Positions 39,251 to 55,172 of a stretch of DNA of 63,343 nt are shown here, one piece after another. How positions within the stretch are numbered: the first letter of the stretch is position 1; every line of letters begins with the position of its first letter. The translations under genes were made by a program, and so were the position numbers. Below the pieces are notes generated by a model. It did not search any database. It saw nothing but the letters and a program-made list of their open reading frames with translations, and was not told the origin of the DNA. Source of the DNA: Verrucomicrobiota bacterium (GTDB lineage: Bacteria; Verrucomicrobiota; Kiritimatiellia; SS1-B-03-39; UBA6053); the NCBI GenBank assembly GCA_020831635.1, contig JAFIGC010000014.1, positions 1-63,343 of the forward strand, read 5' to 3'.

Positions 39251-39361
39251 GCAAACATTTTGCGCTCCCTAATCAACGAATGCGCCGCCTCCAGCATTGA
39301 CAAGCCGATTTTCTCACATAGCCATCAGTGGTATGATGATAAAGCAAACGGGGAACCCTTT

Positions 39362-42300
39362 ATGTCCAGCAGCCTGAAAGACAATCGACCCGCCCGGGGA
39401 ACGGTGGGAGACTTTCTTCGCACCCAAATTCAGCCAAACAGCGAACTGTCTTTCACCTCGGCTTATTTCACCGTCAGCGCCTTCGAGACCCTCCGCTCCG
39501 AACTCGAATCCGCAAATCGCCTCCGCTTTCTATTTGGGGAACCGTCGTTCATCTCCGAAATCGACGTCGACAAAGACGAAAAGAAAAACTTCCGGCTCAC
39601 CGAGGACGGACTTGAGCTTACCCACGCCCTCACCCAGCGGCTCGCCGCCAAAGCCTGCGCGGATTGGATGAAAGAGCAGGTGGAAGTGCGCTCGATACGC
39701 CAATCCGGCTTTTTGCACGGCAAAGCCTATCATATACTCAACGGGAACGCATCCAGTGCCATTCTCGGCAGTTCGAACTTCACTGTTCCGGGGCTGGGCT
39801 TGCGTGAAAGGGGTAATAATATTGAGCTGAACCTCGTGGTGGATTCCGACCGGGACCGCCAGGATCTGCTGGCCTGGTTTGAGGAGGTTTGGCAGGACGA
39901 CACGCTGACCAAGGATGTCAAAGAAGAAGTCCTGCGCCACTTGGAACGTCTCTACGCCAACCACGCCCCGGAATTCATTTACTATCTCACCCTCTTTCAC
40001 ATTTTCCGGGAGGAACTCGAAGGCGCGGGCGAAATCGATGACACCCTCAAACAAACCACCCTCTTGGAGTCCAGTGTCTGGAAAATGCTCTTCAGCTTCC
40101 AAAAAGACGGTGTCAAAGGGGCCATCAACAAAATTCTCGCCTACAACGGTTGCATCCTTGCCGACAGCGTCGGCCTGGGCAAAACCTTCGAAGCTCTCGC
40201 GGTCATCAAATATTTCGAACTCCGCAACGAGCGCGTGCTGGTGCTCTGCCCCAAAAAGCTCCGCCAAAACTGGACGACCTACCGGACCAACAGCCGTCTC
40301 AACCCCCTGCTCGAAGACCGTTTCGCCTACGATGTCCTCTCCCACACCGACCTGTCCCGCATGGAAGGAACCAGCGGTGATCTGGATCTCGCGAACCTGA
40401 ACTGGGGCAATTATGGTCTCATCGTCATCGATGAATCCCACAATTTCCGAAACAACGCCTTGGGCAAAGAAAAAGACGACGGCACCCGCCGCCGTAGCCG
40501 CTACGAACGCCTCCTCGAAGATGTCATCCAGTCCGGGGTCAAAACCAAAGTGCTGCTCCTCTCCGCCACCCCGGTCAACAATCAGATCGCGGACATCCGC
40601 AATCAGATTTCCTTTATCGCCGGCGGCGATGTCGCCCGCTCCGATAATCCCGCCCACGACGGCGCCTTTCGCGAAAGCCTTGGCGTGGCCAGCGTCCGCG
40701 AAACCGCCCGACAGGCTCAAAGCAAATTCACCACCTGGACGAAAAAACCCGTCGCCGAGCGCAAAACCCGCGAATTGATCAACCAACTCGGCAGCGACTT
40801 CTTCAAATTGCTCGACGGACTTTCCATCGCCCGCTCACGCGCCCAGATCAAACGCTACTACGCCAAGGAACTCGCCACCCTCGGCGGGTTTCCCGAACGC
40901 GACAAACCCCGCGCCGAATATCCGGAAATCGACTCCCAAAACAAGTTTCTCAGCTTTCAGCAGCTCGACCACGAAATCAGCAACCTGACCCTGAGTCTCT
41001 ACCACCCCAGTTCTTACCTGCGCGACGATTTGCCCGCCACCATCCGGGAACAATACGCCCTCCGCATCGGAAACTTCACTCAGGAAGGCAGGGAACGCAT
41101 CTTGATTTCCATGATGAAGGTGAATTTCCTCAAACGGCTGGAAAGCTCCATCGATTCCTTCCGCCTCACCCTCAGCCGCACCATCCAAAAAATCGACGAC
41201 CTGACCCAGCGCATCGATACTTTTCAGCAGCTCCAAAACCAAAACCCCGAAATCGACTTCGCCAACCTCTGCGACGCGGATTTTGACGACTTGGATCTCG
41301 ACCCCGAGGAACTCAAGATCGGCGGCAAACACAAAATCAGCCTCGATCACCTCGATCTCCCCAAATGGAAACAGGCCATCAGCCACGACCGAAGTCAATT
41401 GCAATACCTTCTCGACTGCGCCAACCCCATCGCGCCCGCCCGGGACGCGAAGCTGACCCGTCTCCGCAAACTCGTTGAACACAAGCTCGACCACCCCTCC
41501 ACCAACCGCGAGGGCGAACCCATCCGCAAAGTGCTCGTATTCACCGCCTTCGCCGACACCGCCGACTACCTCTGGCGCAACCTCGCACAGCCCCTGCACC
41601 AGGCCCGCGGCACCCACACCGCCCTCATCTCCGGCGGCGGCACCTATCGCACCACCCTCGGCAAAGCCGATTTCGAACACATCCTCACCCACTTCTCCCC
41701 CCGCTCCAAGTCCCGTGACCGCCAGCCGGAACTCTTCCAAAACGAAGAAATCGACCTCCTCATCGCCACCGACTGTATTTCCGAAGGCCAAAACCTGCAG
41801 GACTGCGATCTGCTCATCAATTACGACATCCACTGGAATCCCGTGCGCATCATCCAGCGATTCGGGCGCATTGACCGCATTGGCTCCCGCAATCCCCGCG
41901 TTTCCCTCGTCAATTTCTGGCCCACCCAAGACCTCGACGCTTACCTCAACGTCAAACACCGCGTCGAAGCCCGCATGGCCCTGGTCGACCTCACCGCCTC
42001 CGGCGAGGACAACCTCCTCAACTCCGAGCAATTCGAAGATCTCATCGCCTCCGATCTACACTACCGAAACAAACAACTCAAACGCCTGCAAAACGAAATT
42101 CTCGACCTCGAAGACCTCGACGAGGAAACCCTCTCTCTGGCCGACTTTTCCCTCGCCGACTTCCGCCTCGACCTCCTCCGTTTTCTCGAGTCCAACCGCG
42201 CCGCCCTCGAAGCCGCCCCCCTCGGACTCTACGCCGTGGCGCCCCCCGATCCGCAACTCCCCGCCTCCCAGCCCGGCATCCTCTTCTGCTTCCGACAGCG

Positions 42301-42673
42301 CGACGACCGCCGCCCCACCCAGGTCAACCCCCTCGCCCCCCACTACCTCGTCTACGTCCTCGACGACGGTAACGTCCGCCTCACCTTCGCCCAGCCCAAG
42401 CAAAACCTGGAACTCTTCCGCACCCTTGCCGCCGGACATCCCGCCCCCCTCAACGCCCTCTGCGACGCCTTTGACGACCGCACCCGCAACGGCACCGACA
42501 TGACCCGCGAAAACCAGCTCCTCGCCAACGCCGTAGAGTCCATCAAAACCACCTTCGGCAAACGTGCCGCCGCCGCTCTCTTCTCCGGACGCGACGGCAT
42601 TCTCCCCACCCGAACCGACACCCCCGCCTCCAGCGCCGACCTCGAACTCGTCACCTGGCTGCTCATCATCTAA
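39362..42673 (+). CDS. SNF2-type helicase with N-terminal PLD-like nuclease domain
   Basis: 1103 residues. N-terminal PLD-like domain with HGK (119-121) and GSSNF (136-140), the half-motif pattern of PLD nucleases. Then a superfamily 2 helicase: DSVGLGKT (268-275), DESH (357-360), SATPVNN (401-407) and, in the C-terminal lobe, TDCISEGQNLQDCD and QRFGRIDRIGS (about 832). It probably couples ATP-driven DNA translocation to cleavage, as in PLD-family restriction systems such as NgoAVII/CglI. ATG 39362 has GGGGAA eight bases upstream. With the large methyltransferase downstream it forms the core of a likely defence module. Codon use is very C-rich, like pheT. Confidence 0.87.
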   Translation: MSSSLKDNRPARGTVGDFLRTQIQPNSELSFTSAYFTVSAFETLRSELESANRLRFLFGEPSFISEIDVDKDEKKNFRLTEDGLELTHALTQRLAAKACADWMKEQVEVRSIRQSGFLHGKAYHILNGNASSAILGSSNFTVPGLGLRERGNNIELNLVVDSDRDRQDLLAWFEEVWQDDTLTKDVKEEVLRHLERLYANHAPEFIYYLTLFHIFREELEGAGEIDDTLKQTTLLESSVWKMLFSFQKDGVKGAINKILAYNGCILADSVGLGKTFEALAVIKYFELRNERVLVLCPKKLRQNWTTYRTNSRLNPLLEDRFAYDVLSHTDLSRMEGTSGDLDLANLNWGNYGLIVIDESHNFRNNALGKEKDDGTRRRSRYERLLEDVIQSGVKTKVLLLSATPVNNQIADIRNQISFIAGGDVARSDNPAHDGAFRESLGVASVRETARQAQSKFTTWTKKPVAERKTRELINQLGSDFFKLLDGLSIARSRAQIKRYYAKELATLGGFPERDKPRAEYPEIDSQNKFLSFQQLDHEISNLTLSLYHPSSYLRDDLPATIREQYALRIGNFTQEGRERILISMMKVNFLKRLESSIDSFRLTLSRTIQKIDDLTQRIDTFQQLQNQNPEIDFANLCDADFDDLDLDPEELKIGGKHKISLDHLDLPKWKQAISHDRSQLQYLLDCANPIAPARDAKLTRLRKLVEHKLDHPSTNREGEPIRKVLVFTAFADTADYLWRNLAQPLHQARGTHTALISGGGTYRTTLGKADFEHILTHFSPRSKSRDRQPELFQNEEIDLLIATDCISEGQNLQDCDLLINYDIHWNPVRIIQRFGRIDRIGSRNPRVSLVNFWPTQDLDAYLNVKHRVEARMALVDLTASGEDNLLNSEQFEDLIASDLHYRNKQLKRLQNEILDLEDLDEETLSLADFSLADFRLDLLRFLESNRAALEAAPLGLYAVAPPDPQLPASQPGILFCFRQRDDRRPTQVNPLAPHYLVYVLDDGNVRLTFAQPKQNLELFRTLAAGHPAPLNALCDAFDDRTRNGTDMTRENQLLANAVESIKTTFGKRAAAALFSGRDGILPTRTDTPASSADLELVTWLLII

Positions 42674-42695
42674 ACATGTCCAAAGATTGACAGGA

Positions 42696-42711
42696 ATGCA
42701 TTTTTATGCAT
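42696..42711. promoter_or_regulatory. Paired ATGCAT boxes before vapB2
   Basis: Two palindromic ATGCAT hexamers separated by TTTT, followed by TATATTG, 11 bases before the antitoxin start. A likely autoregulatory operator for the VapBC pair. Confidence 0.4.
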
Positions 42712-42721
42712 ATATTGTTTT

Positions 42722-42943
42722 ATGAGAACAACTCTGGATTTACCCAACGACCTTTTAGAACGCACAAAAATTGAGGCGGTAAAACGCCGAACCACCATCA
42801 AACAACTCGTGATGGACGGACTGCAGCACGTTCTCGCACAGCAGGACATGCCCACCCCACCCCCGCAAGCGTTGAAGCGCCTTCAAAGCGGCTATCGACT
42901 CGGCGGAACGCCCTTGAGTCGCGGGGAGACTCATGAGCGTTAA
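42722..42943 (+). CDS. VapB-type antitoxin (intact pair)
   Basis: 73 residues, starts MRTTLDLPNDLLERTKIEA with a ribbon-helix-helix-like N-terminus (KRRTTIKQLVMDGLQHVL) and a short toxin-binding tail (GYRLGGTPLSRGETHER). It overlaps the PIN toxin gene by 11 bases. It would neutralise and co-repress the pair through the ATGCAT boxes upstream. Confidence 0.82.
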   Translation: MRTTLDLPNDLLERTKIEAVKRRTTIKQLVMDGLQHVLAQQDMPTPPPQALKRLQSGYRLGGTPLSRGETHER

Positions 42944-43346
42944 GCGCTTTTTCGACACCAATGTCCTGCTCTACGCCTACGATCTGGATGCAGGATCCAA
43001 GCGTGAAAAGGCACTCGTTCTGCTCAGCGAAGCCCTTCGAGTTCCATCGGAAACAGCCATCAGCGTCCAGGTTCTACAGGAATTTCACGCCAATTTCACC
43101 CGCTTTGGGAACATGGACGAGGATGCGGCCACCTTGATTCAGGACCTGTCCATCTTTCATGTCGTCGATAACACCCTGTCTCTTCTGCGCCGAGGCCTGG
43201 AGGAAAAGGCCCGATGGCAGCTTTCACTTTGGGACGCCATGATCCTTGCCGCCGCCAGACAGTCGAGATCCTCCGAACTGCTGACCGAAGATTTCAATTC
43301 CGGCCAGGACTACGGCGGCATCCGCGCGGTAAACCCTTTCACCTAG
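42933..43346 (+). CDS. VapC-type PIN-domain toxin
   Basis: 137 residues, predicted Mg2+-dependent ribonuclease. The acidic residues of the PIN site are present: Asp8 (FFDTNVLLY), Glu50 (LQEFHANF), Asp101 (LWDAMILAAA) and Asp120 (LLTEDF). It ends at YGGIRAVNPFT. The stop TAG (43344-43346) consists of the TA target duplication plus the first base of the IS630 element, so the original C-terminus may have been slightly different. Otherwise intact. Confidence 0.88.
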   Translation: MSVKRFFDTNVLLYAYDLDAGSKREKALVLLSEALRVPSETAISVQVLQEFHANFTRFGNMDEDAATLIQDLSIFHVVDNTLSLLRRGLEEKARWQLSLWDAMILAAARQSRSSELLTEDFNSGQDYGGIRAVNPFT

Positions 43347-44542
43347 TGTTCTGTCGCAGAAATGACTAGACATTATTTCCTGATTGCATATACAGGATGC
43401 ATGACTAGAAAAACCACTGTGCTCACATTATCAGATGAAGACCGTAAGACGCTCGAATGCTGGGTTGCCGCACATGGCACTCCTCAACAAGTTGCGTTGC
43501 GCTGTCGTATCATTCTCTACAAATCTGAAGGTCTTACGGACCAGGAAATCGCTCAAAAGCTTGACGTGAACCGTCACACCTGCCGTCTCTGGCGCCAACG
43601 AATGAGTGAGGAGGGTCCTTCTTCTCTGTGGGAAGTGGCTTCTGGACGAGGGCGCAAACCCCAGCAGGGACTTGCCGCAAGCATTCTGGACGCAACCACG
43701 AAAACCAAACCCAAAGGGCAAACCCACTGGAGTAGCCGTGCAATGGCCAAGGAGAAAGGGGTGCATCATTCCACGGTTGCACGGGTCTGGAGCGACAATC
43801 AAATCAAGCCCCACCGCCATAAGACTTTCAAACTGTCCAAGGACCCAGACTTCGTTCCCAAACTTGTGGATGTTGTCGGCGTGTATTTGAGTCCTCCGCA
43901 AAATGCGGTGGTACTTTGCATTGACGAAAAAAGCCAAATTCAAGCCCTGGACAGAACGCAACCGGGTCTGCCGATGAAAAAAGGCAGGTGCGGCACATGG
44001 ACCCACGATTATGTTCGCCATGGTACCACCACCCTGTTTGCGGCACTGGAGGTCGCCAGCGGAAGGGTGATTGGCGAGTGCTACGGACGTCACCGCCACC
44101 AGGAGGTTCTGAAATTCCTGCGAAAGATTGACAAGGAATACGAGAACGGGGAGGAGCTGCATCTGATCATGGACAATTATTGCACCCACAAACACACCAA
44201 GGTCCGAGCCTGGCTGGAGAAAAGGCCTCGTTTCCGTGTCCACTTTATTCCGACAAGCTCCAGTTGGCTGAATCTCGTCGAACGCTGGTTTGCGGAATTG
44301 ACACAAAAAGCCGTTAGAAGAGGAAGTTTTACGAGTGTTCCCGACCTCATTGAAAAAGTCATGGAGTTTATCGAGTCACACAATGAGGATGCCACCCCGT
44401 TTGTGTGGACGGCCACTGCGGAAAGCATACTGGAAAAAATCGAGAAATGCAGACGTCGTCTTGAGGAAATCAGCCCGGGGTGCACCAGCAGAAAAAAACG
44501 GGCGGCAACTTAATATGTCTAGTCATTTCTGCGACAGAACAC
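43346..44542 (+). mobile_element. IS630-family insertion sequence (element 1), 1197 bases
   Basis: Perfect or near-perfect terminal inverted repeats of about 28 bases, starting GTGTTCTGTCGCAGAAATGA (left 43346 on; right, in reverse, from 44542). Flanked by TA on each side (43344-43345, 44543-44544), the TA duplication characteristic of IS630/Tc1. Encodes one transposase. It landed at the vapC2 stop, and a HigA/DUF1016 remnant lies on its far side. Confidence 0.92.
43401..44513 (+). CDS. IS630-family transposase (element 1)
   Basis: 370 residues. N-terminal helix-turn-helix domain (LTDQEIAQKLDVNRHTCRLW) and a DDE catalytic domain: first Asp in LCIDEKSQIQAL, second in IMDNYCTHKH, Glu in LNLVERWFAELT. 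Appears full length and uninterrupted, so probably active. ATG 43401 is the start; an earlier ATG at 43362 lies within the terminal repeat region. Confidence 0.92.
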   Translation: MTRKTTVLTLSDEDRKTLECWVAAHGTPQQVALRCRIILYKSEGLTDQEIAQKLDVNRHTCRLWRQRMSEEGPSSLWEVASGRGRKPQQGLAASILDATTKTKPKGQTHWSSRAMAKEKGVHHSTVARVWSDNQIKPHRHKTFKLSKDPDFVPKLVDVVGVYLSPPQNAVVLCIDEKSQIQALDRTQPGLPMKKGRCGTWTHDYVRHGTTTLFAALEVASGRVIGECYGRHRHQEVLKFLRKIDKEYENGEELHLIMDNYCTHKHTKVRAWLEKRPRFRVHFIPTSSSWLNLVERWFAELTQKAVRRGSFTSVPDLIEKVMEFIESHNEDATPFVWTATAESILEKIEKCRRRLEEISPGCTSRKKRAAT

Positions 44543-44554
44543 TAGATCTCAGCC

Positions 44555-44661
44555 ATGCACCCGAAAATCATCCTACCGAAGAGGAATACGATGCCGCGCT
44601 TGCGCATGTGGAGCCTCTGATGAGACAATTGACATGGATCCAACTCAAGACCCTGATTTAG
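44555..44661 (+). pseudogene. Chimeric remnant: HigA antitoxin start joined to DUF1016 (YhcG) fragment
   Basis: ATG 44555 begins MHPKI, then after a frame change reads HPTEEEYDAALAHVEPLM, parallel to the HigA-like gene at 38436 (MHPKI...EYEEALSHVEILM). It then passes into RQLTWIQLKTLI, which resembles the DUF1016 N-terminal stretch RQLTWSHFKELLPIEDLLKR seen at 45503. Neither part is complete. It marks a deletion or recombination joint next to the IS630 element. A 38-residue frame at 44634-44750 follows and is not recognisable. Confidence 0.6.
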
Positions 44662-44794
44662 TTTTCGAACCGATAAAACAACTTGTCGCGGAAAATTCCG
44701 CCGCTAAACAAAAACCAAAACCCCGCATCGGTTTTCACCTCGACACCTGAAATCAATGATTGACTATTTTTCTGGTCAGACGTAATGGTAAGAC

Positions 44795-45073
44795 ATGGAC
44801 ATCAAAGAAGAAAACTCAGTCGGGATTTCGGATTTCAAAGCTCATTGCACCGAGCATTTGCGGCGGGTGGAACAAACCGGTGCCTCCCTGCGTGTCACCC
44901 GGCACGGGAAAGTCGTGGCCGTGGTGAACCCGCCTGACGACGAATCGCCCACCATTGCGGAGTGGATGGGCCGCGGCGCGGGCCTCTCCAAACCGGGCTC
45001 CGGGGCCTTGTTTGACGAACCCACCTGGCAACCGGGCGACTGGGACATGGAACGGGATGACACCGAACTGTGA
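44795..45073 (+). CDS. Phd/YefM-type antitoxin
   Basis: 92 residues. GISDFKAHCTEHLRRVEQTG and LRVTRHGKVVAVVNPPDD are the Phd/YefM N-terminal fold; the C-terminal tail (GDWDMERDDTEL) is acidic and likely wraps the toxin. It overlaps the PIN toxin gene by 4 bases. Promoter-side bases 44700-44790 show no clear operator. Confidence 0.87.
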   Translation: MDIKEENSVGISDFKAHCTEHLRRVEQTGASLRVTRHGKVVAVVNPPDDESPTIAEWMGRGAGLSKPGSGALFDEPTWQPGDWDMERDDTEL

Positions 45074-45468
45074 ACTACCTGCTTGATACCAATGTTTGGT
45101 TTCGGCTGTTCGACAGTCCCCATGAAATCAACGAAGCGGTGCGCCGCACCCTCCAAAGCGAAAAACGATTGGCGGTTTCCAGTTTCAGCTTAATCGAAGT
45201 CGCGCAAAAGCAGTCCAAACACAACTTCCTCGCCGTCCCGGTCCGGGATTGGTTCAAGATCGCCATCCCCAGAGGCAGAATCGAAGTCCTGACCGTCACC
45301 CCCGAAATCGCGGTCCGTTCTTACAATTTGGGCGATCATTTTCATGGCGACCCCGCCGACCGCATCATCACCGCCACCGCGCTTGTCCACAACCTCACCC
45401 TCGTGACATCCGACCGAAAACTTTTGGCCGAGACCCAAATTCAAACCCTCTCCACCCGGCAACCCTAA
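45070..45468 (+). CDS. PIN-domain toxin paired with the Phd-type antitoxin
   Basis: 132 residues starting with GTG 45070 inside the antitoxin stop. PIN motifs: Asp6 in YLLDTNVWFR, Glu43 in SLIEVAQKQSK, Asp97 in GDPADRIITATAL and Asp115 in TSDRKLL. A complete, probably active RNase toxin of the YefM/Phd-PIN type. Confidence 0.88.
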   Translation: MNYLLDTNVWFRLFDSPHEINEAVRRTLQSEKRLAVSSFSLIEVAQKQSKHNFLAVPVRDWFKIAIPRGRIEVLTVTPEIAVRSYNLGDHFHGDPADRIITATALVHNLTLVTSDRKLLAETQIQTLSTRQP

Positions 45469-45502
45469 CAAACACCATGCCCAACCTCCACCGATCTTTC
45501 CG

Positions 45503-45736
45503 ATGAATTCAGATCGCAACCAGTTTGAATACCGCCAAATTGTCGCTACACTGTCGCGACAATTGACATGGTCTCATTTCAAAGAGCTTTTGCCTATTGA
45601 AGACCTCTTGAAACGAGGCATTTCCCAATGCAGAAAAAGTCTCCGCACTGCGGAGACTTTTGACACGAGTCCACCAAATGATTTACATCATCCCCTTCCG
45701 CGAACTTCTGCTCAACCCCTATCACAAAACCATTGA
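45503..45736 (+). pseudogene. N-terminal fragment of a DUF1016 (YhcG-type) nuclease-family gene
   Basis: YRQIVATLSRQLTWSHFKEL followed by LPIEDLLKR is the conserved N-terminal core of DUF1016 proteins, normally 330-370 residues; here about 45 residues survive. After that the frame is unrelated. The 314-base gap between the PIN toxin and the methyltransferase is made of this remnant and the hairpin at 45635-45661. Confidence 0.65.
45635..45661. terminator. Perfect 13-base hairpin
   Basis: AAAAGTCTCCGCA-C-TGCGGAGACTTTT, arms perfectly complementary with a one-base centre and A/T ends on both sides. Could act as a bidirectional terminator before the methyltransferase gene; one-base loop makes a palindromic protein site an alternative. 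Confidence 0.4.
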
Positions 45737-45782
45737 CATCAACCGCAACTGCATACAAAACGTACCAGATTGACTTCCGCCC

Positions 45783-48700
45783 ATGCCCGACCTCCGCACT
45801 TCCATCCAAACCGCCCTCCAAGCTTTCCAAACCCGCCCTCTCCGCGAGGCAGCCACCGAACTGCTCGCCACCCTCAGCTATCGAAGCGACCGCACTTTGG
45901 CGATTGATAACTTGGAAATCCTCAGGGATCATTTAGACCCACACGATTTCCTAAGAGAAGAAAACGCCCATATTTCTTTGTGGAAATCCGTCCATTTGCT
46001 CTTCCAGCTTACCAAGTCGGAACTCGCCCCATCCGCAGGCAATGACCTGGGACTCATCCTCGAAAATCCTCTGAAACTACACCACGAGGGGAAAGTCATT
46101 GAGTCCTATATCTTCTTTGCCGTGGACCTCCATTCCCGCGACGATGGACAGCCCCATACCCGCGAAACCTACGGCAACATCACCCGGGCCCTCAACCGCC
46201 TGGTGCCGCAACCCGTGCTGGTTCTCTTCCGCGAGAGTTCCCGCCTCTCCCTTGCTGTCATCAACCGCCGCCGCAATCTCCGGGACGGCACTCGCGACGT
46301 GCTTACCCGCGTCTCGCTGATCCGGGACATTGAGGTTGATTCCCCGCACCGCGCCCACCTCGACCTCCTCCAGCGCTTTTCACTCGTCTCCCTGTCCGCC
46401 GAATCCGCGATCCGCACCTTTGCGGATCTCGACACCGCCTGGCAGAAAATTTTCTCCGTCCAGGAACTCAAGAACCGCTTTTACAAATCCCTCTCCGCCT
46501 GGTTCCGCTGGGCCCGGCAGGAAATCCAACTCGCTCAACTCCCCGACCAAACCCCCGACACTCCGGCGGCCAGGGGCCGGGCCACCGACGAGTTTACCGT
46601 CCGACTCATCTGCCGCACCCTGTTCACCTGGTTCCTCAAGGAAATGCGGCTCATCCCCGCCGAGTTGCTTGAACTCTACGACACCGCCGAAAACCGGCGT
46701 GTCCTCACCAGAGACGGCGTGGACCCACATTATCTGGAAGGTAACCACTACTATCGCGGCATCCTTCAAAACATCTTTTTTCAATCGCTGAATCGCCCCA
46801 TGGACCAACGGCGTAAATCCGGACAGGAAGCCGCCAATGACCGCGAAGTCTCGGACTCCGAACTCAAAAAACTCGCCTACATCGGCAAACAGAATCTTCC
46901 CGAGGACTTCGACTATAGTCTCTTTGATCGCATTCCCTACCTCAATGGCGGACTTTTTGATGCCTTGCCCGAGGACAACCTTAAATTCACCCATGAGGAA
47001 GGCACCGCCTTCAACGTTCCCAACAAACTCTTTTATGCCCGCCGGGAGGATGGATTCACACTTCCCGGTGAGGGCCGCCGCGCCACCGCGCAGCCCATGG
47101 AGGGGCTGAACCGAATCTTTGACCGCTACCGCTTCACTGTCGCGGAAAACACTCCGCTGGAAGAGGATGTGGCTCTAGATCCCGAACTGCTGGGACTCGT
47201 CTTCGAAAACCTGCTCGCCGAAATCGACCCTGATGACGAAGCCGCCGCCAATACCGCCCGCAATGAGTCTGGATCCTACTACACCCCCCGCCGCATCGTG
47301 GACTACATGGTCAACGAGGCCCTGCACCTCCATCTCCGCACTGAATTCGAAAAAGACGGTGCCACGCCCGCCGATCTCCAACTTCTTGGTCAACTCTGCT
47401 ATGATCTCGAGCCCGGGGCGGATTTTTCCCCCATCGCCTCTCGGGTGGTGGACAGCTTGGAAGCCGTTCGCGTGCTCGACCCCGCCTGCGGCTCCGGCGC
47501 GTTCCCCATGGGCATGCTCCACCGCATGGTTGAACTGCTGCGCCGAGTCGATCCCGACAACCGGCTCTGGATTGAGCGCCTCCTCTCCCGCATTCCGGCG
47601 GGAATGCGGGAAGACGCCGCCCGCGGGCTGGAGGGCAAAAGCTACAACTACCTCCGCAAGCTCGGGCTCATTCAGAAAAACCTCTACGGCCTCGACATCC
47701 AGCCGTTAGCCACCCTCATCGCCAAACTCCGCTTTTTCCTCACCCTCGTCGTCGAACAGGAAGTCCACCTCGCCGACCCCGCACACAATTACGGCCTCTC
47801 CTCCCTGCCGAATCTTGAAACCAACCTGATCTGCGCCAACACCCTCGCCGATACCGGACACGGCCTGCTCAGCGGACCGATCCTCGCCGATCTCCGCCAA
47901 GCCCGCGAGGAATACTATCAGCCCGCCACCACCCGTGAGCGCCGCGACGAACTCGCCCGCGCGATCGGCGACAAACTCGCCACCCTGTTCCCCGGTTTCG
48001 CCGAATCCGCCAAAGGCGTGAAACCCGTCGGCGAAACCCGGATGGATCGGGAGAACATGCGCCACCATCAGGATGCCTACTGGCTGGCCGAATGGTTCAA
48101 ACACGCCACCCTCGCCGCCCCTTTCTTCAATGTGGAAACCTTCTTTCCCGAACTGATTACCGAAGGCGAACGCGATCCCGCCCCCTTTCATATCGTCATA
48201 GGCAACCCGCCCTACGGGGGCACCAAGATTCCGGATCAAGTCAAAAACGCTCTCGGTCTCGGGTCCAAAGATCCTTACGGTGCCTTCATCGCCCGCTTTC
48301 TGGGGAATCCTCGACGTGCCAGCCCGCTCGCCGAGGACGGGGTGCTCGCCTTCATCGTCAGCGACACCTTCATGACCATCAAAACGCACCGCCCCCTGCG
48401 GGAGCAAATGCTTCGAAACCGTATCCACAAAATGCTACGCGTTTCCGGGGACACCTTCAAGGCTACCGTCAACTGCGCCGTCATCCTCTGTCAACGCGGA
48501 GCCGCCTCGGAAACCCATACCTGCCAGATGGCCGACCTCACCAACGTCTCCATCCAGGAGCAGTACGAGCGCTTCCTTCACCTGCTCTACCAAACCGAAG
48601 GCTTCACCCGGCGCACCAATATCTCCAACCAGACCTACGCGATTTACCACTACCGCCAGCGCCTGATCGAAACGAATTCGAACCTCCCGTTCTTCGTGGC

Positions 48701-49544
48701 ATCACCGAAGCTCTTTGCGTTGATGAATGATACCACCGCGCCCGTTTCACAGGAGGTGATCGGTGGAAAGCGGGTGCCAGTGCGGACCGTGCAACTGAAT
48801 GGGAACGGTGTGCGGCTGATCAAGCTCGGGGATATTGCGGAAGTAAAAGTCGGTTTGCAGACGGGTGATAACGAAGCTTATTTGTTCCAGAACCCAGACG
48901 CCCGTGGTTCCTACCGTTCGATTGAAGAATACCGTGATTTCCTTTTGACCGATGCGGATCTTGCGGAAATTCATTCGGATGAAAATTTGAGAATGGATGT
49001 CATCAACCATGGTATTTCAAAGACCGAAACGACCTCACCACGATACTTTGGCGGTCGTTATATTGCACCCTATGACAAAGGCGGTGAATCTGATTCGGAG
49101 GAGGGATGGATGCCTTGTTACTGGGTGCCTACGAACTACTTCATTGATTGGAGTGAAGAGGCTGTTACTGCAATTAGAACGGTAACAATCGCTGATGCTT
49201 ATCGAAGAAAGGGAAAACCCGTACCTCAGGGGAAGCCTCATTACGAAAATACCGTCGCAGGGTTAATTCGCAATCCAGATTTCTATTTCAAGGATGGCAT
49301 CACTTTTTCAGATACCGGATTTTACGCGCCAACTTTTCGACTAAATAGCGCCGGAACATTCGATGTCATGGGAATGACGCTTTTCGCCGAAACTGATTCA
49401 AAACAGCTCTGCGGATTTCTCGCTTCGCGAATTACCAGATTCTTTGTTAAAACTTTTGTAAATTCTACTGTACACACTCAAGTCGAGGGACTCAAGCCGA
49501 TCCCTTTTCCAAAACTGCAACTAGTGCTTAGTTGCATAGATTAA
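45783..49544 (+). CDS. Eco57I-type DNA adenine methyltransferase, 3' end replaced by an IS
   Basis: 1253 residues as it stands. N-terminal ~350 residues are the helper region of type IIG/PglX-like enzymes (RETYGNITRALNRL, LTRVSLIRDIEVD). SAM-binding motif I DPACGSGAF lies near 565, catalytic NPPY near 807, followed by a target-recognition-like region. Predicted to make N6-methyladenine. The last seven residues (from CTA 49521 on) are IS630 sequence. Without the IS and one TA copy, the frame joins exactly to 50641 and runs to 51603. The loss of about 320 C-terminal residues, including a DUF3800 domain, may or may not have inactivated it. Confidence 0.88.
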   Translation: MPDLRTSIQTALQAFQTRPLREAATELLATLSYRSDRTLAIDNLEILRDHLDPHDFLREENAHISLWKSVHLLFQLTKSELAPSAGNDLGLILENPLKLHHEGKVIESYIFFAVDLHSRDDGQPHTRETYGNITRALNRLVPQPVLVLFRESSRLSLAVINRRRNLRDGTRDVLTRVSLIRDIEVDSPHRAHLDLLQRFSLVSLSAESAIRTFADLDTAWQKIFSVQELKNRFYKSLSAWFRWARQEIQLAQLPDQTPDTPAARGRATDEFTVRLICRTLFTWFLKEMRLIPAELLELYDTAENRRVLTRDGVDPHYLEGNHYYRGILQNIFFQSLNRPMDQRRKSGQEAANDREVSDSELKKLAYIGKQNLPEDFDYSLFDRIPYLNGGLFDALPEDNLKFTHEEGTAFNVPNKLFYARREDGFTLPGEGRRATAQPMEGLNRIFDRYRFTVAENTPLEEDVALDPELLGLVFENLLAEIDPDDEAAANTARNESGSYYTPRRIVDYMVNEALHLHLRTEFEKDGATPADLQLLGQLCYDLEPGADFSPIASRVVDSLEAVRVLDPACGSGAFPMGMLHRMVELLRRVDPDNRLWIERLLSRIPAGMREDAARGLEGKSYNYLRKLGLIQKNLYGLDIQPLATLIAKLRFFLTLVVEQEVHLADPAHNYGLSSLPNLETNLICANTLADTGHGLLSGPILADLRQAREEYYQPATTRERRDELARAIGDKLATLFPGFAESAKGVKPVGETRMDRENMRHHQDAYWLAEWFKHATLAAPFFNVETFFPELITEGERDPAPFHIVIGNPPYGGTKIPDQVKNALGLGSKDPYGAFIARFLGNPRRASPLAEDGVLAFIVSDTFMTIKTHRPLREQMLRNRIHKMLRVSGDTFKATVNCAVILCQRGAASETHTCQMADLTNVSIQEQYERFLHLLYQTEGFTRRTNISNQTYAIYHYRQRLIETNSNLPFFVASPKLFALMNDTTAPVSQEVIGGKRVPVRTVQLNGNGVRLIKLGDIAEVKVGLQTGDNEAYLFQNPDARGSYRSIEEYRDFLLTDADLAEIHSDENLRMDVINHGISKTETTSPRYFGGRYIAPYDKGGESDSEEGWMPCYWVPTNYFIDWSEEAVTAIRTVTIADAYRRKGKPVPQGKPHYENTVAGLIRNPDFYFKDGITFSDTGFYAPTFRLNSAGTFDVMGMTLFAETDSKQLCGFLASRITRFFVKTFVNSTVHTQVEGLKPIPFPKLQLVLSCID

Positions 49545-50638
49545 CGATAGTATTGCGTAGTTGGGTCCCTTTTACCTCCCGCTTTCTCCATTTAAATGGC
49601 TTCGCGGTAGCATTGTATACCTCGATGAATTCGTTAATCGCCCTCCCCAGTTCCTCGACACTCTGGAAGCTTGCTCCTCTCAAGGCCTTTCTCGACATGA
49701 TGCCGAACCAGATTTCCACTTGGTTAAGCCAACTGGCCGATGTGGGAGTAAAGTGAAAATAGACGTTTGGATGTTTCTCAAGCCATGTGTCGCACTTTTT
49801 GTGGGTGCAGTAGTTGTCCAGGATGACATGTATTTCCTGTTCTGGCGGAGCATCCGCGACAATTTCGTCCATGAACTTCAGGAATTCCTCCCGTCGCTTG
49901 AGGGTGGTTTGACTCGTTTTGATTTCGCCGGTAGCCACCTGCAGCGCAGCAAACAGATTGAGCGTTCCATGCCGTTTATAGGTGCTCTTGTAGCCGCGGA
50001 CTATTTTTCCGCTGTCCGTTTCCACATACCCAGTGGCCCGCTCCAAAGCTTGAATGCTTGGTTTCTCGTCCACGCTGATTACCAGAGCTTTCTCCGGTGG
50101 ATTCAGATACAAGCCAATAATATCGGCTGCTTTAGCGGCGAACTGCTTGTCAGTGCTCACGCACCACGAACGTTGACGTGCCAAGCAGATCCCCTCTTTC
50201 CGCAGTACACGCCAAACGGCATGGACCGAACCTCCGACCGCATTAGCCACAGACGGGCCATCCCATTCGGCCTGTCCCCGAGGTGGCGGTTCTTCGAGCT
50301 TTGCCAGTACCTTGTTGCGAAAAGACTCGCCGTAGACGGGTTTAGCTCCGGGGCGAGGCAAATCCTCGAGGCCCTTCAGGCCTTGTTGAGCAAAGCGTTG
50401 ACGCCATTTTATCACAGTATTGGGTCGGGTCTGACAGCGCTTGGCTATATCTTTAACCTGCTCACCGGCTGCGCAACCCAGGATGATGCGCGCACGGTCA
50501 ACAACCTGTTTCGCTTCGGTGCGACTCGTCGCACGACGTTCGAGAACTTGTTGTTCCTTTTCATCAAGTATGATTCGTGGTGATTTTCGTGCCATGCCAT
50601 CAGCATACACTATATCGTATATCAATGCAAGTAAGCAC
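49524..50638 (-). mobile_element. IS630-family insertion sequence (element 2), 1115 bases, splitting the methyltransferase gene
   Basis: Imperfect terminal inverted repeats: left GTGCTTAGTTGCATAGATTA, right (reversed) GTGCTTACTTGCATTGATAT. TA duplications at 49522-49523 and 50639-50640. One transposase gene on the minus strand. A different element from the one at 43346 (transposases clearly divergent), although both share the GTG tip and CTAG surroundings. Confidence 0.92.
49528..50595 (-). CDS. IS630-family transposase (element 2)
   Basis: 355 residues. Helix-turn-helix part VKDIAKRCQTRPNTVIKWRQ, then a DDE domain with Asp in VISVDEKPSIQAL, Asp in VILDNYCTHKK and Glu in WLNQVEIWFGIM. Intact. 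ATG 50595 starts MARKSPRIILDEKEQ. Its 3' end reaches to within 4 bases of the IS end. Confidence 0.93.
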   Translation of the reverse strand: MARKSPRIILDEKEQQVLERRATSRTEAKQVVDRARIILGCAAGEQVKDIAKRCQTRPNTVIKWRQRFAQQGLKGLEDLPRPGAKPVYGESFRNKVLAKLEEPPPRGQAEWDGPSVANAVGGSVHAVWRVLRKEGICLARQRSWCVSTDKQFAAKAADIIGLYLNPPEKALVISVDEKPSIQALERATGYVETDSGKIVRGYKSTYKRHGTLNLFAALQVATGEIKTSQTTLKRREEFLKFMDEIVADAPPEQEIHVILDNYCTHKKCDTWLEKHPNVYFHFTPTSASWLNQVEIWFGIMSRKALRGASFQSVEELGRAINEFIEVYNATAKPFKWRKREVKGTQLRNTIVNLCN

Positions 50639-50745
50639 TAGAATGTGGAGAAATTGCTGAATTAGTTCAATCAATTTCACAAAATCAGCGTACCAAACCC
50701 CGATACGACTACGCCAGCAATGAGCAGCTCGAGATCGACCGCCTC

Positions 50746-51603
50746 GTGTATGCCGCCTACGGGCTGAATGAAGCCGACATCAAGGAGGTGGAGAACTGGT
50801 ATGCGCGGAGGTATCCCAAGCTGGCGGAGGCGCAGCGGCGCAATCTGGCCGCCAAACAGGGCAAGACCGAGGAGGAGATCCTCAACCGTCCCGTGTACCA
50901 TCTGTACTGCGATGAGTCCTGCCATCTCCCCGCCGACGGCGAACCGAACATGCTGCTGGGTCTGGTGTCCAGTCCTGCGGAATGTGTTCGCACCTTGCAT
51001 CTGGACCTGAAAACTCTCTGGTCAAGTCACGGTATGCCGGAGAGTTTTGAGGTGAAATGGACCAAGGTCAGTCCCGCCAAGCTGGATTTCTATCTGGCAG
51101 TGCTTGATTGGTTTTTCGCACAGCCCGACCTGAGTTTCCGCTGTGTGGTGCTTTCAGATAAAGCCGCCGCCTACCAACGTCTCCCAGATGAAAGTCAGGA
51201 TCAGGTTTATTACAGCCTATATTATGAACTCTTACGTCACGCCACCGAACCGGAAAGCAGCTATCGAGCGTTCCTGGACATCAAGGATACCCGTGGCCGC
51301 GAAAAACTGCGGGCTTTGCATGAAATCCTGAAAGTGGATGCCAATGATCCCATGGGCGAACGCGTGGCACAGTTGCAGCATGTCCGTTCCCATGAAATAC
51401 GCCTTTTGCAACTTGCGGATTTGTTGCTCGGGATTGTTGCCCACGCCCGCCGCCCCCGTTCCCCAACGGATTCCAAGGCCAAGAGGGAGTTGATCCACGC
51501 TTTTGAAGACAAGGCGGGTTTCATGCTTTCCGGGGATTCGTTGCCGGGAACTGACAAGGTGCGAGTACTCACCATCCATGACAACCATGAGGTGACCCCA
51601 TGA
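50746..51603 (+). CDS. 3' part of the split gene: methyltransferase tail plus DUF3800 domain
   Basis: Open without stop from the IS edge (50641); first usable start is GTG 50746, giving 285 residues. The first part, including EIDRLVYAAYGLNEADIKEVE from 50731, is the C-terminal tail of Eco57I/PglX-type methyltransferases. From about residue 50 (YHLYCDESCHLPADGE) it is a DUF3800 domain: FEVKWTKVSP, CVVLSDKAA, FLDIKDTRGREKL and HEIRLLQLADLLLGIV. The two are continuous in one frame, so this is the C-terminus of a natural fusion and not an independent gene. The next gene overlaps its stop by 4 bases. Confidence 0.82.
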   Translation: MYAAYGLNEADIKEVENWYARRYPKLAEAQRRNLAAKQGKTEEEILNRPVYHLYCDESCHLPADGEPNMLLGLVSSPAECVRTLHLDLKTLWSSHGMPESFEVKWTKVSPAKLDFYLAVLDWFFAQPDLSFRCVVLSDKAAAYQRLPDESQDQVYYSLYYELLRHATEPESSYRAFLDIKDTRGREKLRALHEILKVDANDPMGERVAQLQHVRSHEIRLLQLADLLLGIVAHARRPRSPTDSKAKRELIHAFEDKAGFMLSGDSLPGTDKVRVLTIHDNHEVTP

Positions 51604-52103
51604 GCCCTCTCCCCACTTGGCTGCCGACAGCCTTGGCGCTCGCTGATTTTACAGATCTGAATGCTCTGGAAGCTGCGGCCTACGCCCATTTCAGGTCTGC
51701 CTGGGCCTCGCATCCCAACTTTCGTGGGGACGAGGTGCGAGTTCATCGCCACCCCCATCTTGCCAACTCAAACCGTTGGAACACCTACTGGCACTGCGTG
51801 ACGGAGGGGCACCCGGAATCGACCCGTACGAACCCCATTCCAGACCGATTGGAACGCATCCCTTGGGCGCGTCCCATTATTGAAAACGAGACGGAAGCTC
51901 ATTCAGGCATCAAAGTATGGGCGAATATACGGGGGCGGGATCGGCATGTCTGCATATGGTTTGAGCCGGAGAATTACCTCATCGTACTAAAAGTGGCCAA
52001 AGACCACTTTGTTCTCAAGACCACCTATCGTCCGGAAAGTCGGCGGCGTTCCCAGCTGCACCGGGATTACGCCAACTGGAAAAAAACGGGCCGCGACATT
52101 TAA
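51600..52103 (+). CDS. Small protein, possible BECR/RelE-fold ribonuclease
   Basis: 167 residues, translationally coupled (ATGA) to the methyltransferase-DUF3800 gene. The second half (IPWARPIIENE, GRDRHVCIWFEPENYLIVL, DHFVLKTTYRPE, RRSQLHRDYANWKK) has the strand pattern and terminal basic/aromatic motif seen in BECR-type (barnase/EndoU/RelE-like) toxins. That assignment is by eye only. Coupling to the fusion gene suggests a functional link. Confidence 0.6.
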   Translation: MSPLPTWLPTALALADFTDLNALEAAAYAHFRSAWASHPNFRGDEVRVHRHPHLANSNRWNTYWHCVTEGHPESTRTNPIPDRLERIPWARPIIENETEAHSGIKVWANIRGRDRHVCIWFEPENYLIVLKVAKDHFVLKTTYRPESRRRSQLHRDYANWKKTGRDI

Positions 52104-52221
52104 TCGCGGCCTAATGCACCTTCCACACATGGTGGATGTGACATAGTGATTATAGCCGCATCGGGCAACCTTATCAACGGTAAATTTAATAAATTTTAAC
52201 ATTTTTTAAGTTTTTTTAAGT

Positions 52222-52644
52222 ATGCAAACCCCTCAACTCTGGCTGATCAAATTCGCGCCTTTCCGAACCGCTTGGGAGGAAATCGTTGCCCGAGGGAACT
52301 TTACTCTTCGTGGGGTTCGTAATCTGGAAGCCCGTAAAAACTTGAATGATATGCGTCTGGGTGATCATGTGCTCTTTTATAGAAGCCAAAAAGACCAAGC
52401 CGTCGTTGGCATTCTGGAAGTTAGTCAGGAGGCCTATCCCGACCCCACCAGTGCCGCTGACATATGGTTAACCTGTGATTTCAAACCCATCCGCACCCTC
52501 TCCCGCCCCGTGACCCTCACCACCCTTCGCCAAGACCCGCGTCTTGAGGACATCCCCCTTTTGCGTCAGCCCCGCCTGGCTGTGATGCCCTTAAGTCAGA
52601 TTGCCTTTGCGCTAATTCTGGAAAAAAGCCATGAACCATCCTAA
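52222..52644 (+). CDS. EVE-domain protein
   Basis: 140 residues, a single EVE (PUA-like) domain: LWLIKFAPFRTAWEEIV, FTLRGVRNLEARKNLNDM, GDHVLFYRSQKDQAVVGILE, EAYPDPTSA, then LARLAVMP-like C-terminal strand LAVMPLSQIAF. EVE domains bind modified bases in DNA or RNA and are often found with restriction and other defence genes. After an AT-rich 118-base gap (promoter-like) it starts a second run of overlapping genes; the HEPN gene begins inside its last codons. Confidence 0.9.
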   Translation: MQTPQLWLIKFAPFRTAWEEIVARGNFTLRGVRNLEARKNLNDMRLGDHVLFYRSQKDQAVVGILEVSQEAYPDPTSAADIWLTCDFKPIRTLSRPVTLTTLRQDPRLEDIPLLRQPRLAVMPLSQIAFALILEKSHEPS

Positions 52645-53383
52645 CTCGGACACGCTGAATTTCGATCCCGAAGAGCTTTGTCAGCGAATTGCCGCCCTGA
52701 CGCGGAGCATGATGGATTTTTGGGAGGATGGCGGATGGGCTCCGGGGGAGGCTGCTCTGTTGCTGGATAAGTCCATGCTTCATTGGCAATCCTCACTGGC
52801 AGAAAGCCTCACCCGTTGGATGAATGCGACATCTGAGGGGGATCTTATTTTGGCCTGGGCGAATTTGGGGGCCTTGATCGAGGGGCAATTGAAACTGTTC
52901 CTCTGTGTTTACTACCATGATTACACTAACGATCTTGAAGGCATTCGTCGGCGAGGAAAACGCATCGACCCGGACGGCAGTCAACTGGAGGAGTTGCGGC
53001 AGTTTTTTGTGAAGAGGATCTGGGATGTGGGCACAAACTGGAACCCTTACGTCCAACTCGTCCAACAGAGGCGAAATGCGGTCCATGCCTTTCAACATCG
53101 GGAACTCGGAACCCACACCGAATGGATGGATGCTCTTCGCCTGCACCTTTCCTTCATTCGGGATCTGAACGGCAGTCTTCCTTATCCGGATGAAATCAGT
53201 TTTTGTGGATGTGAAACCAAAGGCAGACACGCGGGCAGTTCCCATAATCACGATGGTCACCCCGGAAGATACCCCGGAAGTCACCCCGGATGTGGCGAGG
53301 TTTCTAAAAAAGATTTTTCCCTACAACCCGCGCAGCCGCAACTAAAAATATCGACTGACAACCGCCGGGAAAATAATCTCTGA
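52631..53383 (+). CDS. HEPN-type protein with RX4H motif
   Basis: 250 residues, overlapping the EVE gene by 14 bases. The helical body (LILAWANLGALIEGQLKLFL, LEELRQFFVKRIW) leads to QQRRNAVHAFQHRE with Arg147 and His152 in RX4H spacing, the catalytic motif of HEPN ribonucleases. Residues after about 190 (CETKGRHAGSSHNHDGHPG...) are low-complexity and look like a frame that runs out of the domain; the alternative frame from 53210 reads TPEDTPEVTPDVARF, a linker type seen in AAA_4/Fic proteins. The gene may therefore have acquired a foreign 3' end. Confidence 0.72.
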   Translation: MNHPNSDTLNFDPEELCQRIAALTRSMMDFWEDGGWAPGEAALLLDKSMLHWQSSLAESLTRWMNATSEGDLILAWANLGALIEGQLKLFLCVYYHDYTNDLEGIRRRGKRIDPDGSQLEELRQFFVKRIWDVGTNWNPYVQLVQQRRNAVHAFQHRELGTHTEWMDALRLHLSFIRDLNGSLPYPDEISFCGCETKGRHAGSSHNHDGHPGRYPGSHPGCGEVSKKDFSLQPAQPQLKISTDNRRENNL

Positions 53384-53480
53384 AACTCATTTGCACCGTC
53401 ATACAAAAAATTAAGGCCTACAAACCATGACCACCATCATCCGCGACATCCTGAACGACCTCGAACGCACTCGGTAGAAC

Positions 53481-54104
53481 ATGCTGGCGTTGTCGGACGA
53501 CATTTGGTTGAGTATTGATCACAATGATTCGGAGGCGCTGCGGGAGGGGGTGGCGTTCAAAGAGGAATACAATCAGCGCATGACCGCCTTTGACCGTCTG
53601 TCCAAGGAGATTTCCGAGCTGGTGCAGCAGTATACCCAAGTTCGTTTGGAGGTACCGGAGTCGGAGGAAGAGGAGGAGGAAAGCGAACAAGAACGCAACG
53701 CGCGGGTGGTGCGGGAACTGAACAGGGAGGAGGCCCACCGACTGGACGAGGATTTCACCTTCAAACGCCCCTGCGGATATGCCTTGCAAGAAAAAGCATT
53801 CAACGGACTGACCACCTGGCGGCGGTTGTTTGACCATGTTTGCCGTCAGCTTCACGAGCGGGATGCCGACTTGTTCAAACGGCTTCCCGACCTCCCCGCC
53901 TTCAAAACCCGCCGCGGCAATCCGTTTTTCGCTCGCGATCCCAAGGCACTTCGCGTGGATTCGGAAGTGGTTCCCGGCATCCACGCCGAAATCAATCTTT
54001 CCGCCAAAGGCCTCTGCAATGTGATCCGCCTCCTCCTTGAAACCTACAAAATCCCGGAATCGGAAATGACCGTCTATCTGCGTGAAGACCGGGATGCGGT
54101 GTGA
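53481..54104 (+). CDS. Conserved protein of unknown function; 5' end cut by an in-frame amber codon
   Basis: 207 residues from ATG 53481. Upstream and in frame, ATG 53427 reads MTTIIRDILNDLERTR, then TAG (53475-53477), then N and this start. The duplicate at 55339 has GAA (Glu) at that position, so the original gene began at 53427 and TAG is a nonsense mutation, possibly bypassed by restart. The protein has an acidic Glu-rich hinge (about 60-75) and a C-terminal domain beginning DEDFTFKRPCGYALQEKAF and ending VYLREDRDAV, which I have no name for. It overlaps the next gene by 4 bases. Confidence 0.7.
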   Translation: MLALSDDIWLSIDHNDSEALREGVAFKEEYNQRMTAFDRLSKEISELVQQYTQVRLEVPESEEEEEESEQERNARVVRELNREEAHRLDEDFTFKRPCGYALQEKAFNGLTTWRRLFDHVCRQLHERDADLFKRLPDLPAFKTRRGNPFFARDPKALRVDSEVVPGIHAEINLSAKGLCNVIRLLLETYKIPESEMTVYLREDRDAV

Positions 54105-54334
54105 ATACAATGTACCAACCCTCCCGCATCCTCATCTATGGCCTGCTGAACCCGCTGAATGCGGAGCTGTTTTACGTGGGGCAGACTCGGAAGCGGCGGG
54201 AGTTTTGGTTGCTGGAGCAAGCCGCCCAACATCCCGATACCAAAATCCAATCCCAAGCGCGTGCTATCGTAAATCTGATTGGATCCATGAGTCACTTGGA
54301 GTTCCGGGAATTGCTGAAGGAGTCAAATGGGTGA
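54101..54334 (+). CDS. Small GIY-YIG-like protein
   Basis: 77 residues, starting at GTG 54101 within the previous stop (ATG 54110 is an alternative). ILIYGLLNPLNAELFYVGQT has the spacing of GIY-YIG nuclease cores (YGL about ten residues before YVG), followed by basic RKRREF. The remainder of a GIY-YIG domain, including its Glu/Asn, is not evident, so it may be a truncated or non-catalytic version. Overlaps the DUF3800 gene by 8 bases. Confidence 0.6.
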   Translation: MNTMYQPSRILIYGLLNPLNAELFYVGQTRKRREFWLLEQAAQHPDTKIQSQARAIVNLIGSMSHLEFRELLKESNG

Positions 54335-55172
54335 CGTGATTCACAGCTATGTCGATGAAGCCGGTGATCCGATCCTGTTTGGTCGAAAACGGGGAAGCGG
54401 GCCTATCGTTGGGACCGAGGGTTGCTCGAATTTCTTTTTCATGGGCAAATTGGAAGTGGATGACCCGGAGCTGCTTTCATCGAAACTGTCCACCCTGCGA
54501 CTTGAGCTGATCGCGGATCCGTATTTCGCGGGGGTTGAATCCTTCAAACCCGAGCGGAAACGCACGGCCCACGGCTTCCATGCCAACAACGACCTACCCG
54601 AGGTTCGGTATCTGGTGTTTAAGTTGCTGCGGGAAATGGGCGCGGCCGTTAGGTTTCACGCCGTGATCGCGGACAAGACAATACTCGCGCGAGAGGAAAT
54701 GAAACGGCGTGAGGTGGATCCGAAGGCCCGGTATCAGGAGAATTCCCTCTATGACGTTCTGATTCGGGAGCTTTACGGAAAATTTCATCGTCTGGCGGAT
54801 GAATACCACATCTGGGTTGCACGGCGGGGCAAGAGTGACCGCAACAAGGCCCTGAAGGAGGCCATTGAACACGCCGAGCGTGATTTTGAAGCAAGATTCG
54901 GCTTCAGCCGAAACGCCGAGTGGCACATTAACGTCTCCGATCCCAATGCCACCGTCTGTCTCCAAGCTGTGGATTATTTTCTCTGGGCCCTGCAGCGGTT
55001 CTACGAGCGCAAGGAGGCCCGCTTTCTGGACATGATGTGGCCCCAAATCGGAGAAATCCATGATCTTCACCATGGAAATGCGGGTGGTGTGTTCTTTAAA
55101 GGCCAGGACAGACCCACCCTCGAAAGCGCTTTCCCCCGAAAGTATGAAGACAAAAAAAAGCCACGGATATAG
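54327..55172 (+). CDS. DUF3800 protein
   Basis: 281 residues. N-terminal SYVDEAGDP (residues 7-15) is the hallmark first strand of DUF3800. FHANNDLPEVRYLVFKLL, FHAVIADKTIL, LYDVLIRELYGKFH and the C-terminal NATVCLQAVDYFLWALQRFY complete the domain. DUF3800 has been linked to RNase H-like folds, which I cannot confirm here. It is the second DUF3800 in the region, distinct in sequence from the fused one at 50746. Last gene of the overlapping run. Confidence 0.87.
   Translation: MGDVIHSYVDEAGDPILFGRKRGSGPIVGTEGCSNFFFMGKLEVDDPELLSSKLSTLRLELIADPYFAGVESFKPERKRTAHGFHANNDLPEVRYLVFKLLREMGAAVRFHAVIADKTILAREEMKRREVDPKARYQENSLYDVLIRELYGKFHRLADEYHIWVARRGKSDRNKALKEAIEHAERDFEARFGFSRNAEWHINVSDPNATVCLQAVDYFLWALQRFYERKEARFLDMMWPQIGEIHDLHHGNAGGVFFKGQDRPTLESAFPRKYEDKKKPRI

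Follow-up and report, generated by a model that had tools for sequence, protein, structure and literature searches.

A methyltransferase–DUF3800 fusion gene split by an IS630 element, and its RlfB-like partner, in an operon of a Verrucomicrobiota bacterium

The window, meaning the whole 63,343-nucleotide stretch that was analysed (contig JAFIGC010000014.1 of assembly GCA_020831635.1), contains an operon in which a helicase gene, a large adenine-type methyltransferase gene, a DUF3800 domain, a small RlfB-like gene and an EVE-domain gene follow one another on the plus strand. An insertion sequence lies within the methyltransferase frame. The features are:

39260–42673, plus strand: HKD(PLD)-SNF2 helicase (Pfam SNF2-rel_dom, Helicase_C and PLDc_2; PADLOC C3a139 HKD+Snf2, E = 4.5e-127)
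45783–49523, plus strand: N-terminal part of the fused gene, encoding an adenine-type DNA methyltransferase whose probable target-recognition region is at about aa 1141–1247, near its end (motifs DPACGSG and NPPY; Pfam Eco57I, E = 2e-14)
49522–49523 and 50639–50640, no strand: the two copies of the TA target duplication, read from the sequence
49524–50638, minus strand: IS630-family element (Pfam DDE_3 and HTH, terminal repeats, TA duplication)
50641–50880, plus strand: conserved C-terminal tail of the methyltransferase (YDYASNEQLEIDRLVYAAYGLNEADIKEVENWYARRYPKLAEAQRRNL) and linker, severed by the IS
50881–51603, plus strand: DUF3800/RlfA domain with a predicted RNase HII-like fold (Pfam DUF3800, E = 1.6e-9; PADLOC PDC-M04A, E = 2.7e-66)
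51600–52103, plus strand: RlfB-like protein (PADLOC PDC-M04B, E = 2.2e-37; AF2 pLDDT 96)
52222–52644, plus strand: EVE-domain protein (Pfam EVE, E = 3e-32)

The interrupted frame (45783–49544) passes through CTA at 49521–49523 and continues for six IS-encoded residues, VLSCID, before reaching a stop at 49542–49544. The original prediction held that an IS630 element splits one open frame here, and the boundaries 49524–50638 proved exact to the base. Joining position 49523 to position 50641, as had also been proposed, gave a frame of 1567 residues with zero internal stops. The element encodes an intact DDE transposase of 365 aa on the minus strand (49528–50625), and its terminal repeats are imperfect, with 18–19 of 22 positions matching. 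A whole-genome search of the 6.0-Mb host assembly detected the element in a single copy; the sole other match (187 bp, 66%) fell within an IS630 at 43.4–44.5 kb. Since the element is single-copy, repeat-driven misassembly is unlikely, and an assembly chimera as the source of the split gene was rejected on the same ground. Chance continuation of the frame across the IS was excluded by the end-to-end alignment of the rebuilt frame with uninterrupted homologues. The insertion deprives the DUF3800 part of its start and the methyltransferase of its tail and, because it detaches this conserved tail together with the nuclease, the window copy of the system is probably disabled, that is, inactive or altered. 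Judging from the sequence, the detached DUF3800 part could possibly be translated from GTG 50746 or from GTG 50893, the latter with AGGAGGAG about 15 nt upstream.

Homologues of the methyltransferase were 48–78% identical to the window protein, and the tail YDYASNEQLEIDRLVYAAYGLNEADIKEVENWYARRYPKLAEAQRRNL was common to all of those in the junction alignment, including three (L069, L072 and L076) that carry the tail and no DUF3800. Just 5' of the IS, residues ~1141–1260 of the rebuilt protein (49200–49523) showed 30–41% identity to three fused relatives (L019, L020 and L021) and a G+C content of 39–46%, whereas identity in the flanking segments was mostly 60–90%. Since identity and G+C fall there while both flanks stay high, this segment near the methyltransferase end is suggested to be an exchanged target-recognition region. 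The label 'PglX-type' that had been given to the enzyme is loose, as it scored far under the PglX model cut-off (92 versus 500 bits). Identity with BREX PglX was rejected on this NCBIfam cut-off.

Uninterrupted frames combining the methyltransferase, its C-terminal tail and DUF3800 in a single chain of 1572–1687 aa were found in five other genomes. Three came from scanning a single genome for each species: L019 from Akkermansiaceae, the closest relative (1573 aa, 78% identity to the rebuilt frame over 1550 residues), L020 from Cytophagaceae (1572 aa, 66% identity) and L021 from Verrucomicrobiota (1687 aa measured stop to stop, 75% identity). Whole-genome searches yielded the other two, L093 in genome G401 (1593 aa) and L094 in genome G274 (1613 aa). 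These frames bear out the proposal of a natural fusion; the pattern named beforehand as contrary to it, with the methyltransferase always ending at its own stop and DUF3800 always a separate gene, was not what the five intact fusions presented. On this sequence comparison the fusion is natural and existed before the IS landed. In the DUF3800 tree, five of the six fused copies formed one fully supported group; the G274 copy was long-branched and its placement unsure, and a single clade for all six was not rejected (p-AU 0.82). Related operons at L030 and L064 carry DUF3800 as a separate gene which, together with the tail-only methyltransferases and the fusions, indicates that adjacency and fusion both occur in the core system. 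A genome of the same genus (G581) has at L083 a DUF3800 copy that is diverged and interrupted by an in-frame TGA, and this copy is apparently a pseudogene. A scan of IMG/VR returned seven DUF3800 relatives, and all matches began at query residue 83 or later, so the methyltransferase tail is present in none of the seven. A literature search for DUF3800 together with methyltransferase and defence found no paper.

The gene order at the fusion loci was helicase, methyltransferase–DUF3800, small RlfB-like gene, EVE gene. Four loci whose contigs extend far enough (L019, L020, L021 and L093) have the HKD-SNF2 helicase on the 5' side of the fused gene, and the RlfB-like and EVE genes were found on its 3' side at L019, L020, L093 and L094. 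L021 has a diverged RlfB-like ORF, identified by direct reading, with the EVE gene behind it; the EVE gene thus comes after the RlfA/RlfB pair at all five loci. The helicase is predicted to be the restriction effector of the core system and the EVE protein a reader of modified bases. An HKD-SNF2 helicase, an N6-methyltransferase and an EVE protein likewise share one operon in Type-2 BR/Hma systems (PMC12839542) and in COG1743-DUF499-helicase-EVE operons (PMC7641849), but the window operon has DUF3800 and an RlfB-like gene instead of the DUF499 ATPase. The Pfam scan of ten window proteins (39260–55172) gave no match to DUF499, and membership in Hma/Type-2 BR was rejected because the required DUF499 ATPase (HmaC) was not found in the operon. 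DISARM membership was rejected as well, since the helicase scored 157.6 bits against the DrmD cut-off of 610.

The DUF3800 domain is homologous to RlfA of phage P1 (35% over 96% of the query). Its AF2 model (pLDDT 93) gave RNase HII/H2 as the best fold matches in Foldseek (E = 2e-4, probability 1.00), and residues D11, E12, E57, K59, D133 and D180 (domain numbering) were identical in 60 of 60 DUF3800 sequences. The modelled domain thus shows an RNase HII/H2-like fold with the invariant D-E...D...D acids of the RlfA family, and both this fold and the PDC-M04A profile place it among RlfA proteins. An RNase H fold for RlfA was already proposed in 2013 (PMC3710099). The gene at 51600–52103 starts within the DUF3800 stop, with an overlap of 4 bases (ATGA). 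Its product is homologous to P1 RlfB (35% over 64% of the query), and it was assigned to RlfB (PDC-M04B) by the matched profile and its position directly 3' of RlfA. The model of this protein has four strands following helices, and BECR toxins dominated its top PDB matches, though each was weak (RelE, HigB and colicin D, best E = 0.17). Residues H65, R76 and R83 were kept in 53 of 53 RlfB-like sequences, and one member of the family gave a marginal match to Pfam PBECR2 (E = 0.012). Given the weak RelE, HigB and colicin D matches and the marginal PBECR2 match, the model makes a BECR-fold RNase likely. A viral-fold search with the RlfB-like model found one phage relative. Sequence searches of solved structures with the DUF3800 and RlfB-like profiles returned nothing meaningful, and NCBIfam contained no model matching either protein.

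The window pair resembles P1 RlfA/RlfB (RapA/RapB of P7) in the homology of both proteins, their order and the overlap of the genes. The P1 proteins differ in that neither is fused and in that their adjacent, overlapping genes lie beside repL rather than in a restriction-modification (R-M) operon. No R-M gene was found in the 7 kb viewed around them, which shows that an R-M neighbour is not a requirement for the pair. The PADLOC candidates PDC-M04A and PDC-M04B matched the two window genes strongly, but the PDC-M04A models describe a lone domain of about 190–232 residues, whereas the window domain is a methyltransferase C-terminus; a literature search on this candidate found no attached mechanism. 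The list of NamA RNase H folds includes P1 RlfA, in neighbourhoods with HEPN proteins and some R-M genes; the part of that source available to us contained neither a methyltransferase fusion nor an RlfB partner (PMC3710099). DUF3800 proteins found with Cas12a2 and type VI-F systems (PMC10910872, PMC12669027) are also RNase H-fold accessory nucleases in defence but, unlike the window protein, have a CRISPR context and a TPR fusion.

Unfused pairs were often found within R-M operons, typically in the order hsdM-hsdS-rlfA-rlfB with hsdR on either side. Outside the fused clade, the immediate upstream gene was Methylase_S (HsdS) in 16 of 41 cases, the second-upstream gene carried N6_Mtase in 12 of 31, and HSDR_N was detected among the sampled downstream genes in 11 of 47. 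With the fused loci included, R-M genes were in view at 34 of 53 DUF3800 loci (23 with hsdS), a count from which contig ends conceal further neighbours. These genes were on the same strand as the DUF3800 copy, save one weak helicase match in L068. The original prediction had DUF3800 acting on or with methylated or unmethylated DNA, and this was not established: the RlfA-type fold, the RlfB-type partner and the unfused copies beside hsdS point away from a methylation reader and towards an effector that docks on R-M complexes.

In the R-M operon of EcoprrI, too, a ribonuclease gene follows the one for specificity: the order is hsdM-hsdS-prrC-hsdR, and the anticodon nuclease PrrC stays latent on the R-M complex (PMC3014915). 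In a guard of this type an anti-restriction factor sets the latent nuclease free. For RlfA/RlfB the likeness is one of gene placement, with the order hsdM-hsdS-rlfA-rlfB-hsdR in many loci; several others have hsdR on the upstream side of hsdM, and only part of the loci therefore match the prrC slot. PrrC is a sequence-unrelated ABC-ATPase-HEPN protein, whereas RlfA/RlfB are two proteins without an ATPase, and an ATPase gene was not generally adjacent to them. Membership in the PrrC family was rejected, as neither window protein has HEPN or ABC domains. We consider it somewhat probable that RlfA/RlfB form a nuclease pair that guards the R-M complex on which it is docked, here tethered covalently to the methyltransferase. 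Before the IS landed, the locus would have been an R-M operon in which the HKD-SNF2 helicase attacks unmodified DNA and the large adenine methyltransferase shields the host. The two-protein nuclease module would ride on the methyltransferase, with RlfA joined at its C-terminus right behind the specificity region and RlfB, the predicted BECR-fold RNase, produced by coupled translation. We infer that the pair is kept on the R-M complex and that a phage block or saturation of the complex would release or activate it. Like PrrC on EcoprrI, the activated pair might then provide a second line of defence, probably an abortive one, by cutting RNA or RNA-DNA hybrids.

The other explanations were judged less likely. 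The overlap of stop and start, the tight co-occurrence of RlfA and RlfB, and the BECR-like fold modelled for the small protein would also suit a toxin-antitoxin pair stabilising the R-M locus, in which RlfB is an RNase toxin and RlfA, active or structural, its neutraliser anchored to the methyltransferase. This is unlikely, as all catalytic acids of RlfA are invariant, which is unexpected in a plain antitoxin, and RlfA was found without a detectable RlfB at five loci (L009, L011, L012, L013 and L016). Distinctly unlikely is a type IIG-like enzyme whose C-terminal RNase H/RuvC-fold nuclease restricts or nicks unmethylated DNA. The covalent link directly behind the specificity region, the invariant acidic residues and the presence of DNA nucleases such as RuvC among RNase H folds would agree with it, but the top fold match is RNase HII/H2 and not RuvC, a helicase-nuclease is already in the operon and is retained by the DUF3800-less relative L069, and the pair coexists with hsdR in type I loci. 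A replication role in processing RNA-DNA hybrids, with hitch-hiking in defence islands accounting for the R-M operons, is very unlikely despite the annotation of the P1 genes beside repL as 'possibly associated with lytic replication', since these are non-essential by CRISPRi (PMC10695390) and the repeated hsdS adjacency across many phyla and the methyltransferase fusion favour a functional link.

When two proteins are covalently fused, this strongly indicates that they act together, and here the fusion connects an unexplained nuclease pair, known so far from P1 and as a mere defence candidate, with the subunit of restriction systems that modifies DNA. It suggests that the P1 pair is one form of a nuclease module carried by R-M systems, and that the 'replication' genes rlfA/rlfB serve defence or exclusion instead. 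More tentatively than for the docked pair of the window, RlfA/RlfB might be a general two-nuclease guard of type I and helicase-methyltransferase systems, also in P1. The position of the fusion would then mean that RlfA docks where the methyltransferase has its C-terminus and specificity region, and there it could sense an engaged or blocked complex.

Between the helicase and the fused gene the window contains a second, distantly related IS630 element (43362–44513, 37% transposase identity), flanked by two VapBC-like pairs (42722–43346 and 44795–45468), and, immediately 5' of the methyltransferase (45503–45736), what is left of a DUF1016_N (PDC-S02) gene, 77 aa long. At L019 a Schlafen/AlbA_2-HATPase protein (2526–4040) lies between helicase and fused gene, and at L021 a PIN protein; this position seems to hold changing toxin-like cargo. 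On the 3' side of the EVE gene, 52631–54334 contains three genes of 250, 207 and 77 aa, the first two of which were scanned and gave no family match. At 54327–55172, 2.7 kb downstream of the first DUF3800 domain, lies the gene for another DUF3800 protein, which belongs to a different subfamily (PADLOC DUF3800_VII).
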